NCBI RefSeq assembly: GCF_024494725.1 | Contig: NZ_JANHDK010000003.1 | Coordinates: 248,001 to 312,000, forward strand | DNA from: Haloplanus ruber | GTDB taxonomy: Archaea > Halobacteriota > Halobacteria > Halobacteriales > Haloferacaceae | Direction of reading: 5' to 3' | Length of the DNA stretch: 64,000 bases | Shown here: in pieces, positions 41,265 to 49,805 of the stretch | Layout: each line of letters opens with the position of its first letter | Position numbering within the stretch: position 1 is the first letter of the stretch | Notes under the pieces: generated by a model | Databases searched by the model: none | What the model saw: only the letters and a program-made list of their open reading frames with translations | Told to the model about the DNA's origin: nothing | Program-made: the position numbers and the translations under genes

Positions 41265-42614
41265 TCAGACCTTCCCCTCGAAGTACGACAGCGGCACCTC
41301 TTCGACCATCTGTGCTTCGCCGCTCTGCACCTGTAGGATGCGGTAGGGGACGACCGGTTCGAGGTTCTCGTTCAGGTCGACCGACCCCGAGGCGCCGTTG
41401 TAGTCCACGGCCTCGTCGTTTCCGAGCGCGTCCTTTCCGGCCTGGAACTCGGCGACCGAGACGGTCGTGTCACCGTCGTTGGCCCGGGAGACGGCCCGGA
41501 TGTTCTCGGCGATACCCGTGCCGCTGGCCTCGCCTGCGGCCTCCATCGCGAGGCCCATGAGGTACGTCGCGTCGTAGGCGTGGGGGGCGAACTGCGTGAT
41601 GTTCCCCTCGCCGCCCATGTTCTCTTGGAACGTGTCGCTGTTTGCGGTCTGGGGTGAGGTGATGTACATCCCCTCGACGATATCCGAGAGATCGGAGAGC
41701 AGTTCGGGCGACAGGATCGCCTCGGCGCCGACCCACTCGCCGCCGTAGCCGCCTTGGTTCCACTGCTGGAGGATCGTCCGCCCGCCGCCGGGGTACATCA
41801 CCGCGCCGACCGCGTCGGGGTCGCCGTCGAACACCGAGTCGAGGGTGGACGTGTAGTCGCTGGTCTGCTGGGAGTAGCCGACCATATTTAGCGTCTCGCC
41901 CTCGAAGTTCTCGCTCGCCGCCTCCGCCAACCCCTGTCCGTAGGGGTTGTCGACGTAGAGGAAGGAAGCCGTCTCGGCCTCGATAGATTGGTTCAGCACG
42001 CGCGCCATCACGAGCGCCTGCTGGACGTCGTTGGGCGAGGTCCGGCCGTAGTACTTGACGCCGTTGCTCTCGTTGACCCCCGCGGTCGCCAGCGCGGGCG
42101 AGGTGTTGCCGTTCGAGACCTCTATCACCTGGTTGTCGCGGGCGATGGGGGCGAGCGTCGTCCCGATACCGCTGGAGTACGGCCCCACGAGGCCGACGAT
42201 TCCCTCCTGATTGATCATCGTCCGGAACTTCTGGGCTGCCCGCGACGGACTCCCCTCGGTGTCGCGGTTGACCGGCGTGATCTCCCGGCCGCCGAGGACG
42301 CCGCCGGTGCCGTTGATCTCCTCGACCGCGAGGTTGAACGCCTGCTGATGGCCACCGCCGTACGCGCTGTTCGTCCCCGTGATCGGGAAAATCGAGCCGA
42401 GCGCGATAGGCTCGCCACCGCCGGACTCCATCTCCGTCGCCGTCTCCTCCATCTCGCCGTCGCCGCCGTCGCCGTCCATGCTCCCCTCGGTTTCGGTCGC
42501 CGTCGCGGTACTTCCCTCGCCGTCCTGTTGTGAGCAGCCAGCGAGCGAGACTAGCCCGGCCGTACCGGTCGCACCGAGTCCTCTGAGGATGTCCCGTCGA
42601 CTGTGATCAGACAT
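41265..42614 (-). CDS. livJ: Branched-chain amino acid ABC transporter, substrate-binding lipoprotein
   Basis: A 449-residue periplasmic-binding-protein-type receptor (Peripla_BP_6), anchored outside the membrane. The N-terminus SDHSRRDILRG with lipobox LAGC gives a Tat-exported lipoprotein, followed by a Gly/Asp/Glu-rich linker. The core shows ALGSIFPITGTNSAYGG, GLVGPYSSGIGTTLAPIARDNQV, and the ligand region VEVSNGNTSPAL. ATG 42614 is preferred since GATTAATTTG (42641-42650) predicts a start of transcription near 42619; ATG 42626 and GTG 42641 are in frame. It is divergent from livH, so the importer genes share a regulatory region. Confidence 0.9.
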   Translation of the reverse strand: MSDHSRRDILRGLGATGTAGLVSLAGCSQQDGEGSTATATETEGSMDGDGGDGEMEETATEMESGGGEPIALGSIFPITGTNSAYGGGHQQAFNLAVEEINGTGGVLGGREITPVNRDTEGSPSRAAQKFRTMINQEGIVGLVGPYSSGIGTTLAPIARDNQVIEVSNGNTSPALATAGVNESNGVKYYGRTSPNDVQQALVMARVLNQSIEAETASFLYVDNPYGQGLAEAASENFEGETLNMVGYSQQTSDYTSTLDSVFDGDPDAVGAVMYPGGGRTILQQWNQGGYGGEWVGAEAILSPELLSDLSDIVEGMYITSPQTANSDTFQENMGGEGNITQFAPHAYDATYLMGLAMEAAGEASGTGIAENIRAVSRANDGDTTVSVAEFQAGKDALGNDEAVDYNGASGSVDLNENLEPVVPYRILQVQSGEAQMVEEVPLSYFEGKV

Positions 42615-42924
42615 TACGTGCGCCATGTTATTCCTTTCCACAAATTAATCTACTGCTCATTTGTACACAAATGTATAGGTTCGAGGGCGAAAAATATGTA
42701 CGTAGGGCTCTCATGTTCGCCGATAGTGTCCGTCTATCTCACTGGTGGTCCGATATGTTAGCCGTACCATCATGTATCCGACACACGATTGCGGGAATCC
42801 GCGAGAGGCCCGCACGCATCGGGAGGGCGGTGCCGCGACGGTCGACCGACCGGTGGTGGTCGGTTCCACACGACCGCTCCGATGGCACCCAAACGATATT
42901 AACCGTGGTATGTCATTCCGACCT
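42615..42924. promoter_or_regulatory. Divergent livJ-livH control region
   Basis: A 310-nt region without a gene. It carries the livJ TATA GATTAATTTG (minus, 42641-42650), a perfect inverted repeat CATTTGT-AC-ACAAATG (42658-42673) just upstream of that box, AT-rich stretches (AAAAATATGTACG around 42691, ATATGTTAG around 42753), a GC-rich middle, and the livH TATA GATATTAACC (42895-42904) about 26 nt before ATG 42925. Confidence 0.7.
42658..42673. promoter_or_regulatory. Operator-like inverted repeat CATTTGT-AC-ACAAATG
   Basis: Seven-nt arms, perfect, two-nt spacer, located 8-23 nt upstream of the livJ TATA box, where a regulator could compete with or recruit TFB/TBP. Confidence 0.65.
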
Positions 42925-44349
42925 ATGGTCGCCGAAACGGGACTGCTGAACGCTGTCGTAACGGGCGTCGTCACCGGAAGCATCGTCGCCCTCGGTGCGA
43001 CTGGGTTGGCGCTGGTGTACGACATCGCCGAGGTACCCAACTTCGCACACGGGGACCTGCTGACCCTCGGCGCGTACGCCGCCTTGCTGGTCAACAAGCC
43101 GGACACGGTTCCGCTGTTTGACCTGCTGTCGACCGGCCCCCAACAGGTCGGCGTCGCCGGCGCTGCGGTGTTGTTCGTCCTGTCGGCCGCCGGCGTCCTC
43201 GGCACCGTCTATCACCTCGGCGGGGCTCGGGCGTTGAAGGGGAGTTGGTGGGGCTTCGACGCTCCAGACGGCGTCGCACTCGCCGTTCACGGCGCCGTGG
43301 CGGCGCTGGTCGGCGCGGCCGTGGTGCTCGGCGCGCCTGCCTTCCCCGCCGCGTTGCTCTTTGCGTTCGTCCTGCTCGGTGCCGTCGTCCCACTCTTGGA
43401 GTCGCTGATCTTTCGCAAGTTCCGCGAGAAGGACGTCGAACTCGCCTTGATGCTCATCGTCTCGCTCGCCGTCGCCTTCGTCGTCCGGTTTGGGATCCAG
43501 ACGATTTTCGGCGGTCAGATCCGGTATTACACCGTCGAAACGACCGTGCCGTTTTTCGGCGGCGTGCTCGATTTCACCCTCGCGAAGTTCTTCGACTTCT
43601 TCCTCGTCGACGGTGGACTGACCCTCGCGATTATGGAGAGTCGCGGTGACGCTCTCCGGCCACTGCTCGTGATGAGTTACTCGTGGCTCGAACTCCTCGT
43701 CGTCGTCGTCGCGACGGGCGCCGTCGCCTACGCCGCACACCGCCGGCGGCGGGGCACCGCCGGCGTCGTCGGCCCGCGTCTCGCCGCCACACTCTCGGGA
43801 CTCGCCGTTCTCGCCCTCGGTGGCGCAGTCCTCCAGGGTGGCGGGACTGGCGTCCCGGAGGCGGCCATCGCGGCCACCCGCGTCCGCACCTCGCCGCTCC
43901 GTCTCAGCATCATCGTCCTCGCCTTGCTCATGATGTCCGCGCTGCATTACCTCCTGCAGGCGACGACCCTCGGCAAGGCCATGCGGGCGACGAGCGACAA
44001 CCGCAAACTCGCGATGGTTCGCGGGATCAACACCCGACAGGTAATGATGTCCGTCTGGATCATCTCCGGTCTCTTTGCGGCCATCGGCGGGGTCATGCTC
44101 GGCTTCCTGTTCAGTTCGATCACGATCAATCTCGGGTTCAACCTCTTGTTGGCGATGTTCGCCGGCGTGATCCTCGGCGGCATCAGCGTCTACGGCGCCA
44201 TCCTCGGGAGCTACGTCGTCGGCCTCGCGATGGAGGTGGGCATCTTCGCCATCCCGGGACTCAGCGCCACCTACCGCATCCCCGTCGCGTTCGTCGTCCT
44301 GTTGCTCGTGTTGCTCGTTAAACCCGAAGGCATCGTGGGGGGGAGCTGA
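42925..44349 (+). CDS. livH: Branched-chain amino acid ABC permease LivH, enlarged
   Basis: A 474-residue permease, compared with about 290-310 for bacterial LivH. The family core is present: LYDIAEVPNFAHGDLLTLGAY-type start, GKAMRATSDNRKLAMVRGINT (the EAA-type coupling loop), SITINLGFNLLLAMFAGVILGGI and the final EGIVGGS. Extra hydrophobic blocks lie at about residues 60-150 and 200-320. It forms the channel with LivM and is powered by LivG/LivF. ATG 42925 follows the TATA box at 42895-42904; upstream in-frame sequence is not protein-like. It leads a livHMGF operon with overlaps or 1-2 nt gaps. Confidence 0.9.
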   Translation: MVAETGLLNAVVTGVVTGSIVALGATGLALVYDIAEVPNFAHGDLLTLGAYAALLVNKPDTVPLFDLLSTGPQQVGVAGAAVLFVLSAAGVLGTVYHLGGARALKGSWWGFDAPDGVALAVHGAVAALVGAAVVLGAPAFPAALLFAFVLLGAVVPLLESLIFRKFREKDVELALMLIVSLAVAFVVRFGIQTIFGGQIRYYTVETTVPFFGGVLDFTLAKFFDFFLVDGGLTLAIMESRGDALRPLLVMSYSWLELLVVVVATGAVAYAAHRRRRGTAGVVGPRLAATLSGLAVLALGGAVLQGGGTGVPEAAIAATRVRTSPLRLSIIVLALLMMSALHYLLQATTLGKAMRATSDNRKLAMVRGINTRQVMMSVWIISGLFAAIGGVMLGFLFSSITINLGFNLLLAMFAGVILGGISVYGAILGSYVVGLAMEVGIFAIPGLSATYRIPVAFVVLLLVLLVKPEGIVGGS

Positions 44350-44350
44350 G

Positions 44351-46036
44351 ATGGCGGCCGCCGACGTCGTCATCTCGTTCATGCTGTTGGTGTCGATTTA
44401 CGGCATCCTCTCGCTCGGCCTGAACGTCAAGTACGGCCACACCGGCCTACTCGACTTCGGCCACGTTGGCTTCTACCTGATCGGCGCGTACACCGCGGCG
44501 CTGTTCGTCCTCGGCCCGGACGATCCCACCGACTTCACCGCCTATATCATCGGCCTCGGTAACGTGCCTGTGGTTGGCACCTGGCCCGTCGCTATCGCCG
44601 CCGCGACGCTTCTGGCCGGGGTGATCGGTGGCCTAGTCGCGCTGCCGACGATCCGTCTGCGCGAGGACTACCTCGCTATCACGGTGCTCGGCGTCTCGGT
44701 CATCTTCCAACGGGTCATCCAGTCCGAGACGTGGCTGGCGAACGGGCCTGACGCCCTCCGGGGGTACAGCCCGCCGCTTCAGGATCTGTTCCCGCTGGCG
44801 ATGGAGACGCTGGTCGGCCCCGCGATGTTCGGTCTCATCGTCGCCGTCGTCTGGGGAATCGCCACGGGCGCGCTCGGGCGACTCCGCGGATCGGACTCGC
44901 GGCTCCCACTCGACGGCGTCTACACCGTCACGACGTTCGGTCTGACGCGTCTCCGCCGCCGAACCGACGCGCTCGGCTCGGCCACGACGGTCAGCGCCGC
45001 CGCGGGCGCTGTCGCCGGCCTACTCACGTTCGCCCTGCTGGTGGCGGTCGATCCCCTCTTGAGCCTCGGAGCGGTCGTCTCGCTGTACACCTGGTTCGTG
45101 GCGCTCGTGGCCGTTACTCACCACTACGGCGGCCTGGGTCGCCGCGAGGGGCTGTTCGGTATCGCACTCGGCACCGGACTGCTGGTTGCCCTCCTCCCGC
45201 TCCCACTCATCGACTCTGTCGGACTCAAAAGCGCGCTGGCGCTCGCCTTACTCGGCGCGCTGGTGGCCGCCTACTACCTCGGCGTGACGCGGGTCGACTG
45301 GCTCGCGGACGTGAAACTCGCCGTCGTCGGCGTCGGCGCGCTCTGGTTCGTCGCGCTGTGGTACTTCCTCCTGCCCATCCTGGGACCGCTCGGCGACGGT
45401 GACGTCGGCGGCGCCCTCAACATACTGGTCCAGAACGTCGTCTGGCTCCTCGGATTCGGCGGCGACACGGGCATCGGCTACGCCGTGGTGCTCGTCGGCG
45501 AGTTGACCGTCAACGTCGACTACGCACGATTCCAACTCGCCGCGTTCGTCCTCTTCCTGGCCGGACTGTACTACGTGCTGGAACTCGCCGTCCGGTCGCC
45601 GTTCGGCCGCGTCCTGCGGGCCGTCCGCAACGACGAGACGGTCGTGCAGTCACTCGGCAAGGACCCCTTCGTCTACAAGGTTCAGACGATGGTCTTGGGG
45701 TCCGCGCTCGGCGGGTTCGCGGGCGCGCTCTGGGCCATGTACGCCCAGGGGCTGACGTTCACCACCTTCGCCCCCCGGGTTACGTTCATCACCCTGCTGA
45801 TCATGTTCCTGGGCGGTGCCGGCAACAACAAGGGTATGATCCTCGGGGCCGCCATCTTCTGGGCGTTCCAGCAGGCGACGACACAGCTTGCCTCCTTCTT
45901 CCCGCCTGCCGTCCGCGTCAACATCCAGGCGTTCCGACTGGTGGTCGTCGGCGTCCTCTTTTTGCTCGTCCTCTACTACGTTCCCGAAGGACTGCTCGGG
46001 CGTGAGGAGGGGACGTCCTCGGAGGTGGACGGATGA
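44351..46036 (+). CDS. livM: Branched-chain amino acid ABC permease LivM, enlarged
   Basis: A 561-residue permease, against roughly 330-420 in bacteria. The start SIYGILSLGLNVKYGHTGLLDFGHVGFYLIGAYTAA, IRLREDYLAITVLG, and the coupling segment SPFGRVLRAVRNDETVVQSLGKD define LivM; the end GLTFTTFAPRVTFITLLIMFLGGAGN is also typical. About 200 residues (about 150-390) of extra hydrophobic helices lie in the middle. One nt separates it from livH; its stop overlaps the livG start. Confidence 0.9.
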   Translation: MAAADVVISFMLLVSIYGILSLGLNVKYGHTGLLDFGHVGFYLIGAYTAALFVLGPDDPTDFTAYIIGLGNVPVVGTWPVAIAAATLLAGVIGGLVALPTIRLREDYLAITVLGVSVIFQRVIQSETWLANGPDALRGYSPPLQDLFPLAMETLVGPAMFGLIVAVVWGIATGALGRLRGSDSRLPLDGVYTVTTFGLTRLRRRTDALGSATTVSAAAGAVAGLLTFALLVAVDPLLSLGAVVSLYTWFVALVAVTHHYGGLGRREGLFGIALGTGLLVALLPLPLIDSVGLKSALALALLGALVAAYYLGVTRVDWLADVKLAVVGVGALWFVALWYFLLPILGPLGDGDVGGALNILVQNVVWLLGFGGDTGIGYAVVLVGELTVNVDYARFQLAAFVLFLAGLYYVLELAVRSPFGRVLRAVRNDETVVQSLGKDPFVYKVQTMVLGSALGGFAGALWAMYAQGLTFTTFAPRVTFITLLIMFLGGAGNNKGMILGAAIFWAFQQATTQLASFFPPAVRVNIQAFRLVVVGVLFLLVLYYVPEGLLGREEGTSSEVDG

Positions 46037-47004
46037 GCGACGCCATCCTCGAAGTCGATGGTCTCCGCAAGACCTTCGGCGGCATCGTCGCCGTCGACGG
46101 TGCCACCTTCGACATCGCCGAGGGGTCGATCACGGGTCTCATCGGCCCGAACGGCGCGGGCAAGACGACGACGTTCAACCTCATCAGTGGCTTCTACGAA
46201 CCCGACGGCGGCACCGTCCGGTACGACGGCCGCGACCTCCAGACGATCATGCGCCCCCACCGGGACGAGACGGTCATCTGGGGGGGTGCCAGCGGCCTCA
46301 CGGCCGGCACCCTCGGTGGCGTCGTCGGCCTCGGACCGCTCGGGCTGGGGGCGGCTCCGGCCGCCGGTGCCACCGTCGCCGGCGCGGCGCTGGGCGCGGG
46401 CGGCTACCTCGCCAAACAGCGGCTCACCCAGCGTCGCCCTGGCCACACCAACAGCCGCCCGTACATGCTGGCCCGCGAGGGACTGGTCCGCACCTTCCAG
46501 CTCACCCGTGAACTCGGCGACATGACCGCCCTAGAGAACCTGATGCTGGCCCCGCAGGGACAGGCCGGCGAGAACCTCGCCAACGCCTGGTTCCGTCGCG
46601 GGGCCGTCGCCGAGGAGGAGGCGTCGGTCCGGGAACGCGCCGAGGAGACCCTCGAACTGCTCGAGATCGACCACCTCCGGGACGAACCGGCGGGCAACCT
46701 CTCCGGCGGGCAGCGCAAACTGCTGGAGCTTGGGCGGGTGTTGATGCTCGAACCGCGGGTGATCCTGCTCGACGAACCCGTCGCCGGCGTCAACCCCGCG
46801 CTCACCGAGAAGCTGATGGCCCGCATCGAAGCGCTCCGTGCGGACGGCTACACCTTCTGCATCGTCGAACACGACATGGAAGTGATCATGGAACTCTCCG
46901 ATACGATCATCGTGATGAACGAAGGGAAGAAACTCGTCGAGGGACAGCCCGACGCGATCAGAAACGACGAGGCGGTTATCGACGCCTACCTCGGGGTGGG
47001 GTGA
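46033..47004 (+). CDS. livG: Branched-chain amino acid ABC ATPase LivG with hydrophobic insert
   Basis: A 323-residue nucleotide-binding subunit, about 65 residues longer than bacterial LivG. Walker A GPNGAGKT is at 38-45, the Q-loop follows REGLVRTFQ at about 149-156, the signature LSGGQRKLLELG and Walker B RVILLDEPVAGVNP are intact. Between GRDLQ (about 70) and REGLVRTFQ, where bacterial LivG has about 10 residues, there are about 75. Residues 84-127 (46282-46413) are almost wholly Gly, Ala, Val and Leu with glycine-zipper spacing. It overlaps livM by 4 nt (ATGA). Confidence 0.92.
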   Translation: MSDAILEVDGLRKTFGGIVAVDGATFDIAEGSITGLIGPNGAGKTTTFNLISGFYEPDGGTVRYDGRDLQTIMRPHRDETVIWGGASGLTAGTLGGVVGLGPLGLGAAPAAGATVAGAALGAGGYLAKQRLTQRRPGHTNSRPYMLAREGLVRTFQLTRELGDMTALENLMLAPQGQAGENLANAWFRRGAVAEEEASVRERAEETLELLEIDHLRDEPAGNLSGGQRKLLELGRVLMLEPRVILLDEPVAGVNPALTEKLMARIEALRADGYTFCIVEHDMEVIMELSDTIIVMNEGKKLVEGQPDAIRNDEAVIDAYLGVG

Positions 47005-47006
47005 CG

Positions 47007-47714
47007 ATGGCGCTGCTCGAAGCCCGCGGCGTGGTCTCGGGCTACGGCGACGCCGAGATTCTCCACGGCGTCGACCTAGACGTCGAGGATCGCGAAATCG
47101 TGACCATCATCGGTCCGAACGGCGCGGGCAAGTCGACCATGATGAAAGCGACCTACGGCCTCATCGACTGCTGGGCCGGGACGGTCACCTTCGACGGCGA
47201 GGACATCACGCCACTCCGTGCCGATCAGGTGACCGAACGCGGCATGTGTTACGTTCCCCAGCGGGAGAACATCTTCCCGACGCTGACGGTGCGCGAGAAC
47301 CTCGAGATGGGGGCGTACATCGACGACCCCGATCCCGAGGACTTCGAGGCGGTGTGGGACCGGTTCCCGTTCCTCGAAGAGCGAGAGAACATGCGGGCAA
47401 GCGCCATGTCCGGCGGCCAACAGCAGATGCTCGCCCTCTCCTCGGCGCTGATGATCGACCCCGACCTCCTCCTCGTCGACGAACCCTCCGCCGGCCTCGC
47501 GCCCGACCTCGTCGACGACATGTTCGAGCGCCTGGTTCAGATCCGCGACGAGACGGACACGGCCATCCTGATGGTCGAACAGAACGCGCGGCAGGCGCTG
47601 GCCGTCTCGGATCGGGGGTACGTCCTCGACATGGGCGAAAACCGGTTCGAGGGGTCCGGCGAGGAACTCCTCGAAAGCGACGAGGTGGCGGAGCTGTACC
47701 TCGGGGGCGGTTGA
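47007..47714 (+). CDS. livF: Branched-chain amino acid ABC ATPase LivF
   Basis: The second ATPase, of standard length (235 residues from ATG 47007; an overlapping GTG at 47001 is also possible). Walker A GPNGAGKS, the signature AMSGGQQQMLALS, Walker B LLLVDEPSAGLAPDLVD and the His-switch are all in place. Unlike LivG it has no insertion. The gene ends 4 nt before the convergent glycine-zipper microprotein. Confidence 0.93.
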   Translation: MALLEARGVVSGYGDAEILHGVDLDVEDREIVTIIGPNGAGKSTMMKATYGLIDCWAGTVTFDGEDITPLRADQVTERGMCYVPQRENIFPTLTVRENLEMGAYIDDPDPEDFEAVWDRFPFLEERENMRASAMSGGQQQMLALSSALMIDPDLLLVDEPSAGLAPDLVDDMFERLVQIRDETDTAILMVEQNARQALAVSDRGYVLDMGENRFEGSGEELLESDEVAELYLGGG

Positions 47715-47901: not shown

Positions 47902-48074
47902 CGTCGGTCCTTCGACTCGATGGACAAAAGCCTATCCACGAGGCCGACGCCGGCCTGCGAACTTCCAGCCATGAGATCCAGAGCACCCGCTCGACCGACG
48001 TGGGTTGGATTCCAGTTATTACAATTTGATAATTGGCACCGCGGATTCATACGTCAGTAGTATATTTCCCGGAT
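47902..48074. promoter_or_regulatory. Divergent region glycine-zipper / transducer genes
   Basis: 173 nt. The left side serves the microprotein (CTTTTG, 47925-47930, minus). On the right, ACAATTTGATAATTGG (about 48018-48035) is the best TATA-like block for the transducer and GTATATTT (about 48059-48066) is a second AT-rich element closer to the start. Confidence 0.4.
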
Positions 48075-49805
48075 ATGCTCATGGACCAGTACCGACGAGC
48101 GCTGTGGGGGACGATGGATGTCCTCGGGATCACCGAGTCCATCGAGCGCAAGATCGTCGCCGCGGTGACGATTCAGTTCAGCGTCGCCGTCGCCCTCGCC
48201 CTCCTCCCGTTCGTCCTGACCGGTGTCGCCCGGACCGCCCTCACGGTCGCGCTCCTGGGTGGTGCCGCCCTCGCGTTCGTCAACACGCTGCTCATCGCCC
48301 GCCGTGACTTCGTCGCTCCAGTACGGATGCTGGAGGACGCGGTGACGACGATTGCCGCCGGCGAGATCGACGAGGTTACAATCGAGTCCCACGACCAGGA
48401 CGACGAGATCGGGAGCCTCGTGGCGGAGTTCGACGACATGCGGGCGTCGCTCGTGACCATCTCCGCGCAGGCCGACGCTCTCGCCGAACAGGAGTTCGAC
48501 GCGCCGGTCCTCGAGGAGTCGGTCCCCGGGTCGTTCGGTGACTCCCTGGACCGAATGGCTGACAACCTCCGACAAAACACCCGCGAACTGGAGGCGCTGA
48601 CCGACCACCTCGAGCGGACGGCCGACCGGTACGGCGACGTGATGGCTGCCGCCGCCGACAAGGACCTCTCGGTCCGAATGGATCCCGACGACGAGAGCGA
48701 CGCCATGGCCGCCATCGCGCGGTCGTTCAACCGGATGCTCGACGACATCGAGGGGACGGTCGGTGAGGTGTCCGCCTTCGCCGACACCGTCTCGGAGCGC
48801 ACCGTCGACACCTCGACCGAACTCGACGAGGTGGCGCGGGCGAGCGAACGGATCAGCGATGCCACGGACGAGATTTCCGACGACGCCGAGGAACAGCGCG
48901 ACCAACTCCAGCGGATCGTCTCGGAGATGAGCGACCTCTCCGCGACTGTCGAGGAGATTGCCGCCTCGGCCGACAGCGTCGCCGAGGTGGCCACCCGCAC
49001 CGCCGAGATGGGCGACGACGGACAGACGGCGGCGGTCGACGCCCTCGAACGGATGGACGCCATCGAGACCCGGGCGACCGAGACGATGGACCAACTCCAC
49101 GAACTCGACGACCGCATGGCCCGCATGGGCGATATCGTCGCCACTATCTCCGACATCGCCGAGCGGACGAACCTACTTGCCCTGAACGCCTCCATCGAGG
49201 CCGCCCACTCGGACTCCGGTGACGGCGCCGAGGGCTTCGCCGTCGTCGCCGACGAGGTGAAGTCACTGGCCGAGGAGGCCCAGGCCGAAGCCACGGACGT
49301 CCAGGAGATCATCGACGGTCTCCAGACACAGACCACGGCCACCGTCGAGGGGATGCGCGAGACGACCGAGGAGGTCGCCGACGCCGTCGAAACTGTCGAG
49401 GACGCCATCGACTCGCTCGACCGCATCGCCGAACTCGCCCACGAGACCGACGAGGGCATGCGAGAGATTTCGGACGCGACCGACCAGCAGGCCGCCTCGA
49501 CCGAGGAGACCGTCTCCATGGTCGAACAGATCGAAACCACGAGCCAGGAGACCGCTACCGGCGCCACCGACGTCGCCGTGGCCGCCCGCGAGCAGTCTAC
49601 CTCTCTCGACGACGTCTCCGGCCGCGTCGACGACTTGGCCGAACAGGCCGACGCCCTCCGAGAACTGCTGGAGACGTTCGAACTGTCGACACGGGTGGAC
49701 GACATCGACGCGACCGACGGCGATGTGGGCGCACAGACGCCCGACGACGACGGCGCCACACCCCCCGAGGTCGAAGCCGACGGCGGGATCACGTTCGACC
49801 GCTGA
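48075..49805 (+). CDS. Two-TM taxis transducer (methyl-accepting chemotaxis protein)
   Basis: A 576-residue transducer. Two helices (about residues 30-50 and 55-80) are joined by only a few residues, so there is no external sensory domain. A HAMP domain follows (RRDFVAPVRMLEDAVTTIAAGEID), then a second HAMP-like unit (VMAAAADKDLSVRMDPDDESDAM), then the long four-helix bundle with the hairpin ERTNLLALNASIEAAHSDSGDGAEGF, which contacts CheA/CheW. Glu/Gln-rich repeats offer methylation sites. ATG 48075 is chosen from several in-frame starts. It lies next to the Liv importer, but control of taxis by that importer is unproven. Confidence 0.9.
   Translation: MLMDQYRRALWGTMDVLGITESIERKIVAAVTIQFSVAVALALLPFVLTGVARTALTVALLGGAALAFVNTLLIARRDFVAPVRMLEDAVTTIAAGEIDEVTIESHDQDDEIGSLVAEFDDMRASLVTISAQADALAEQEFDAPVLEESVPGSFGDSLDRMADNLRQNTRELEALTDHLERTADRYGDVMAAAADKDLSVRMDPDDESDAMAAIARSFNRMLDDIEGTVGEVSAFADTVSERTVDTSTELDEVARASERISDATDEISDDAEEQRDQLQRIVSEMSDLSATVEEIAASADSVAEVATRTAEMGDDGQTAAVDALERMDAIETRATETMDQLHELDDRMARMGDIVATISDIAERTNLLALNASIEAAHSDSGDGAEGFAVVADEVKSLAEEAQAEATDVQEIIDGLQTQTTATVEGMRETTEEVADAVETVEDAIDSLDRIAELAHETDEGMREISDATDQQAASTEETVSMVEQIETTSQETATGATDVAVAAREQSTSLDDVSGRVDDLAEQADALRELLETFELSTRVDDIDATDGDVGAQTPDDDGATPPEVEADGGITFDR

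Follow-up and report, generated by a model that had tools for sequence, protein, structure and literature searches.

A conserved, clade-specific variant of the LivG ATPase subunit of a branched-chain amino acid-type ABC transporter carries a 69-residue insert that is predicted to fold into a helical hairpin on the edge of the permease-docking groove. This variant is encoded in the window, a 64,000-nucleotide stretch of the Haloplanus ruber genome. To our knowledge, the nucleotide-binding domains (NBDs) of ABC importers are taken as soluble proteins that touch the membrane pore only via coupling helices; a conserved uncharged hairpin beside the docking groove would give the ATPase a further connection to the pore, possibly one within the membrane. 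We favour, with some reserve, the reading that the hairpin, with its uncharged surface, serves as a membrane or permease tether or as a coupling element.

The LivG locus and the limits of the insert

The livG gene (46033..47004, + strand; 323 aa, P0001) encodes a protein with matches to Pfam ABC_tran (101.6 bits, cut-off 25) and, at its C-terminus, to BCA_ABC_TP_C (34.3 bits, cut-off 25.5), the latter characteristic of LivG of the branched-chain amino acid type; its closest solved relatives are MJ1267 and LptB. Walker A, Q-loop, LSGGQ, Walker B and H-loop are all retained in the alignment, identifying an ABC ATPase. The protein is LivG-like and lies outside the Escherichia coli LivG equivalog (NF008449; 230.5 bits, below the curated cut-off of 362). 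The gene set of a branched-chain-type operon is complete and arranged as livHMGF with livJ divergent: livJ encodes the substrate-binding protein (41265..42641, - strand; Pfam Peripla_BP_6, 145 bits), livH (42925..44349, + strand; 474 aa, Pfam BPD_transp_2) and livM (44351..46036, + strand; 561 aa, assigned by Pfam, alignment and AlphaFold2) encode enlarged permease subunits, and livF (47001..47714, + strand; ORF and Pfam) encodes the second ATPase of the operon, which has no insert. Downstream of livF, an ORF at 48033-49805 of the window resembles a methyl-accepting chemotaxis protein.

The insert comprises LivG residues 73-141 (46249..46455, + strand) and is situated after the strand that follows Walker A and ahead of the Q-loop, as delimited by Walker A-Q-loop spacing and by alignment to insert-less LivG proteins and E. 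coli LptB; other LivG proteins lack it. The preliminary description of this DNA had placed an extra stretch before the Q-loop at residues 72-148; the stretch is present, and those limits are slightly too wide, taking in part of the normal helix that precedes the Q-loop. Column statistics over 32 aligned rows delimit an apolar stretch at residues 82-127 (46276..46413, + strand), with Trp83 (31/32) and Tyr125 (32/32) at its ends. The segment singled out earlier, 46282-46413, corresponds exactly to residues 84-127, given the LivG start at 46033, and had been described as nearly all Gly, Ala, Val and Leu with glycine-zipper spacing. The composition is borne out: these four residues make up 82% of positions 83-126 (G15 A11 L7 V3 T3 P2, plus one each of W, S and Y), which contain no D, E, K, R, H, N or Q. 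The spacing does not hold up; small residues are abundant in many columns, and they occur at i,i+3/4/7 no more often than in shuffled sequences (P 0.4-0.9), nor is there a significant excess among columns that hold only small residues throughout the family, so that the insert does not qualify as a glycine zipper.

The longest run without D/E/K/R/H/N/Q is 48 residues in this LivG, as against 9 in the remainder of the same protein and at most 12 in insert-less NBDs of the fetched loci. On both sides the insert is flanked by stretches with many charged residues and Q/N. In 31 homologues from other records, its length and its hydrophobic pattern are both maintained. Charged or strongly polar residues are nearly absent from columns 82-127 across the 32 rows, with exceptions mostly at positions 100-110, in the turn, and near the ends. 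Invariant or nearly invariant positions of the insert include P75, W83, A86, G92, G117 and G123, together with M73, E79, G121 and Y125, which are identical in all 32 rows.

Distribution, descent and selection

Spacing between Walker A and the Q-loop is bimodal, at 41 or 108-113 residues with no intermediates. Of 392 genomes sampled across the order, 40 (17 of 95 genera) have an insert-bearing orthologue, including five from the window's genus. Absence from close homologues had been named at the outset as a result that would refute the suggested contact with membrane or permease; the insert is kept in all 40 detected orthologues. In a one-genome-per-species collection, 31 insert-bearing and 44 insert-less LivG proteins were readable, and the carriers were all haloarchaeal. 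In a tree of the ATPase core, with the insert left out, a single branch (support 99/90) sets all 32 insert-bearing proteins apart from the others, in a clade that spans Haloferacaceae, Haloarculaceae, Haladaptataceae, Natrialbaceae and Natronomonadaceae. Judged from these sequences, the pattern is consistent with a single origin, with no loss seen among the 32 rows.

Insert-less haloarchaeal LivG proteins, which share about 54-66% identity with this LivG outside the insert, are likewise encoded in livHMGF operons, with permeases of standard size. One of them is the closest paralogue in the same genome (G000:C1:457410-458168), whose matches to LivG residues 2-70 and 139-321 abut. The same genome holds a second liv-type operon (L038; G000:C1:447000-465000) with standard-size permeases and an insert-less LivG, which constitutes a natural internal control. 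In several operons of the Halorussus group (L045, L046, L047, L055 and L056), two or three livJ-like binding-protein genes are adjacent, which suggests one transporter common to several substrates.

A phylum-wide profile search detected no homologous insert outside the order; two weak matches beyond the orthologues, presumably EamA-like and MFS-like membrane transporters, were read as membrane-like composition and rejected as homologues. Pfam searches with two insert segments returned only chance matches below the cut-off, and an origin from a known domain was rejected; a profile search of PDB sequences with the insert gave nothing below E 0.07. In the literature searched, with most subscription journals outside its coverage, no publication on this insert was found.

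In close pairs, dN/dS of the insert is mostly about 0.08-0.23, a range from which we judge the insert to be under purifying selection in those pairs. Over all pairs, the median is 0.50 for the insert versus 0.23 for the core, with dS partly saturated. A low-complexity, Gly/Ala-rich insertion that is merely tolerated, without a specific role, in a genome rich in GC would account for amino-acid substitution at a higher rate than that of the core (dN ratio about 2.7) and for the use of GC-rich Gly and Ala codons, but hardly for a nearly constant length, the four invariant residues, the near-exclusion of charge, the lack of any observed loss and the low dN/dS in close pairs, and we consider it quite improbable.

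Predicted structure and position in the ATPase fold

An AlphaFold2 model of LivG alone, computed from a 59-row alignment (mean pLDDT 92), predicts an ordered helical hairpin rather than the disordered loop that had been allowed for as a contrary outcome. Helix 1 is predicted at residues 77-100 (46261..46332, + strand; block pLDDT 91/86/75) and helix 2 at residues 107-134 (46351..46434, + strand; block pLDDT 74-93). The remainder of the model is a normal LivG/LptB-like NBD. The closest solved relative in sequence and structure is MJ1267, the LivG-type ATPase of Methanocaldococcus (PDB 1G6H, 1GAJ and 1G9X; Z 30.9 to 1GAJ), which shares the NBD fold and the LivG-type C-terminus but lacks the hairpin: LivG residues 69 and 139 align to its adjacent residues 71/72. 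An extra segment within the NBD of an ABC protein is also found in CFTR NBD1, where the regulatory insertion precedes Walker A. The LivG insert follows Walker A and is predicted helical, and is thus not an insertion of the CFTR type; the regulatory insertion comprises residues 405-436 and is described as significantly disordered (PMC3776845). The name 'LivG insert' is used in the same paper for a part of MJ1267 (PMC3776845) and, because that part belongs to MJ1267 itself, denotes something other than the insert at residues 73-141.

The position of the hairpin can be read from E. coli LptB, the ATPase of LPS export, which is 34% identical to LivG, superposes at 1.7 Å over 231/234 residues and has the groove that docks coupling helices in common with it. 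LptB has no insert, and the two NBDs of its transporter are identical. By alignment, the insertion point falls between LptB L70 and P71, immediately before the equivalents of P71-L72-H73. In the portion of the LptB study that deals with these positions (PMC5082905), pBPA at L72 and H73 gave several UV-dependent cross-links in vivo, as did other groove positions, in a passage that names no cross-link partner; D64 and R77, described there as cytoplasm-facing, gave none, and the groove bearing L72 and H73 receives the LptFG coupling helices. Because the insertion point adjoins the equivalents of L72 and H73, the hairpin probably emerges from the NBD at the edge of the docking groove that faces the membrane. 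Among the arguments for contact between the hairpin and the permease or membrane, this analogy carries the most weight, although it comes from a homologue of limited identity that does not give the direction of the hairpin.

In the mechanism that we propose, the hairpin would exit LivG at this edge, where the coupling helix of the permease docks, and its two helices would most likely lie in the membrane or at the permease/membrane boundary, beside transmembrane helices of LivH or LivM. It could thereby tether the ATPase to the permease and transmit or limit movement of the ATPase during ATP-driven closure. There would be one hairpin per transporter, an asymmetric arrangement, because only LivG, and not LivF, has the insert. 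A hairpin that instead joined two transporters, or LivG to LivF, by helix packing would suit the small residues in many columns, which permit close packing; yet the spacing of those residues does not go beyond composition, co-divergence of the insert with LivF is no greater than with other controls, and the insertion point, as placed by alignment and by the groove data described for LptB (PMC5082905), is at the permease groove and not at the NBD dimer interface, all of which makes such a joint highly unlikely. A tethering hairpin would make the limits on the movement of importer NBDs testable by deletion and swap, and natural controls exist in the paralogues without the insert that the same cells encode and in the pair of operons that combine the insert with standard permeases.

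The membrane and the enlarged permeases as possible partners

The preliminary description had suggested that the insert could reach into the membrane or pack against enlarged permeases, forming a different ATPase-permease interface. The position at the groove edge supports contact with membrane or permease in general. Each helix of the hairpin has about 21-23 uncharged residues and is long enough to cross a bilayer; in a membrane hairpin, Trp83 and Tyr125 would both lie at the cytosolic end, with charged residues on either side of the hairpin and polar ones tolerated in the turn. Composition and predicted hairpin thus fit a bilayer-embedded element, and hydropathy is borderline: the best 19-residue Kyte-Doolittle value of the insert is 1.25-1.84 across the family, and summed biological-scale values for the window's insert are +5 to +7 kcal/mol, so the hairpin may not insert on its own. 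The ATP synthase proteolipid (c/K subunit) of the same organism is also a Gly/Ala-rich two-helix hairpin, and its first helix has a similar best 19-mer hydropathy (1.8), which indicates that Gly/Ala-rich membrane helices of this kind are normal for the organism; the proteolipid is a stand-alone membrane protein, with no established sequence relation to the insert.

On these grounds we conclude that the uncharged surface is buried, most probably where permease and membrane meet, and that entry of the hairpin into lipid is plausible. A bolder reading, which we put forward tentatively and think somewhat doubtful, is that these insert-bearing LivG proteins, although ATPases of an importer, are integral membrane proteins in their own right: a transmembrane hairpin beside the coupling-helix groove would anchor one of the two NBDs permanently, make the importer asymmetric and open a second route of communication between ATPase and permease. 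Alternatively, the hairpin might never enter lipid and might act as a brace, packed against loops that LivH or LivM exposes to the cytosol, that widens the NBD-permease interface. Borderline hydropathy, an uncharged surface suited to a buried protein interface and an insertion point near the groove (by alignment and the part of the LptB study cited above; PMC5082905) agree with such a brace, as does the presence of enlarged permeases in nearly all insert-bearing operons. We nevertheless think it rather unlikely, since about 46 charge-free residues bounded by Trp and Tyr look, as a sequence pattern, more like lipid or intramembrane packing, and in two operons the insert is accompanied by standard permeases, which have no extra segments.

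Enlargement of the permeases, as described at the outset, is confirmed. Both subunits carry long extra membrane segments: relative to standard LivH, LivH has extra blocks at about residues 60-130 and 205-312, and LivM has about six extra predicted helices within about residues 134-397 (155-348 in another delimitation; AlphaFold2 mean pLDDT 79.9, pTM 0.84). When all 40 whole-genome insert-bearing operons were read, 38 had enlarged LivH and LivM, and insert-less operons had no extra segments. The two exceptions pair an insert-bearing LivG with standard-length permeases, which form a separate deep lineage: one is in Halorubrum persicum (L086/L169; L086:2627-7601), where LivH has 298 aa, LivM has 321 aa and the insert is kept, and the other is in a genome of another family (G264; L168:6096-9000). 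Because the insert occurs there without extra permease segments, a role in meeting the enlarged permeases is weakened, and contact is more likely with the core that all these permeases have in common, with lipid or with some other partner. An AU test did not reject LivG of enlarged-permease operons as one clade (p 0.30), and either of two histories could apply: the insert may be older than the permease enlargement, or the ATPase genes may have been transferred to different permeases.

A partial Mantel test for co-divergence between the insert and the additional LivH and LivM segments was positive and was rejected as evidence, as the extracellular LivJ control behaved similarly. A natural LivM-LivG read-through chain was also considered and rejected; livM and livG share no frame in any fetched insert-bearing locus with a readable LivM. 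On one contig of a metagenome-assembled genome (L070:3420-5084), livH is apparently split into two ORFs, by a frameshift or an assembly error.
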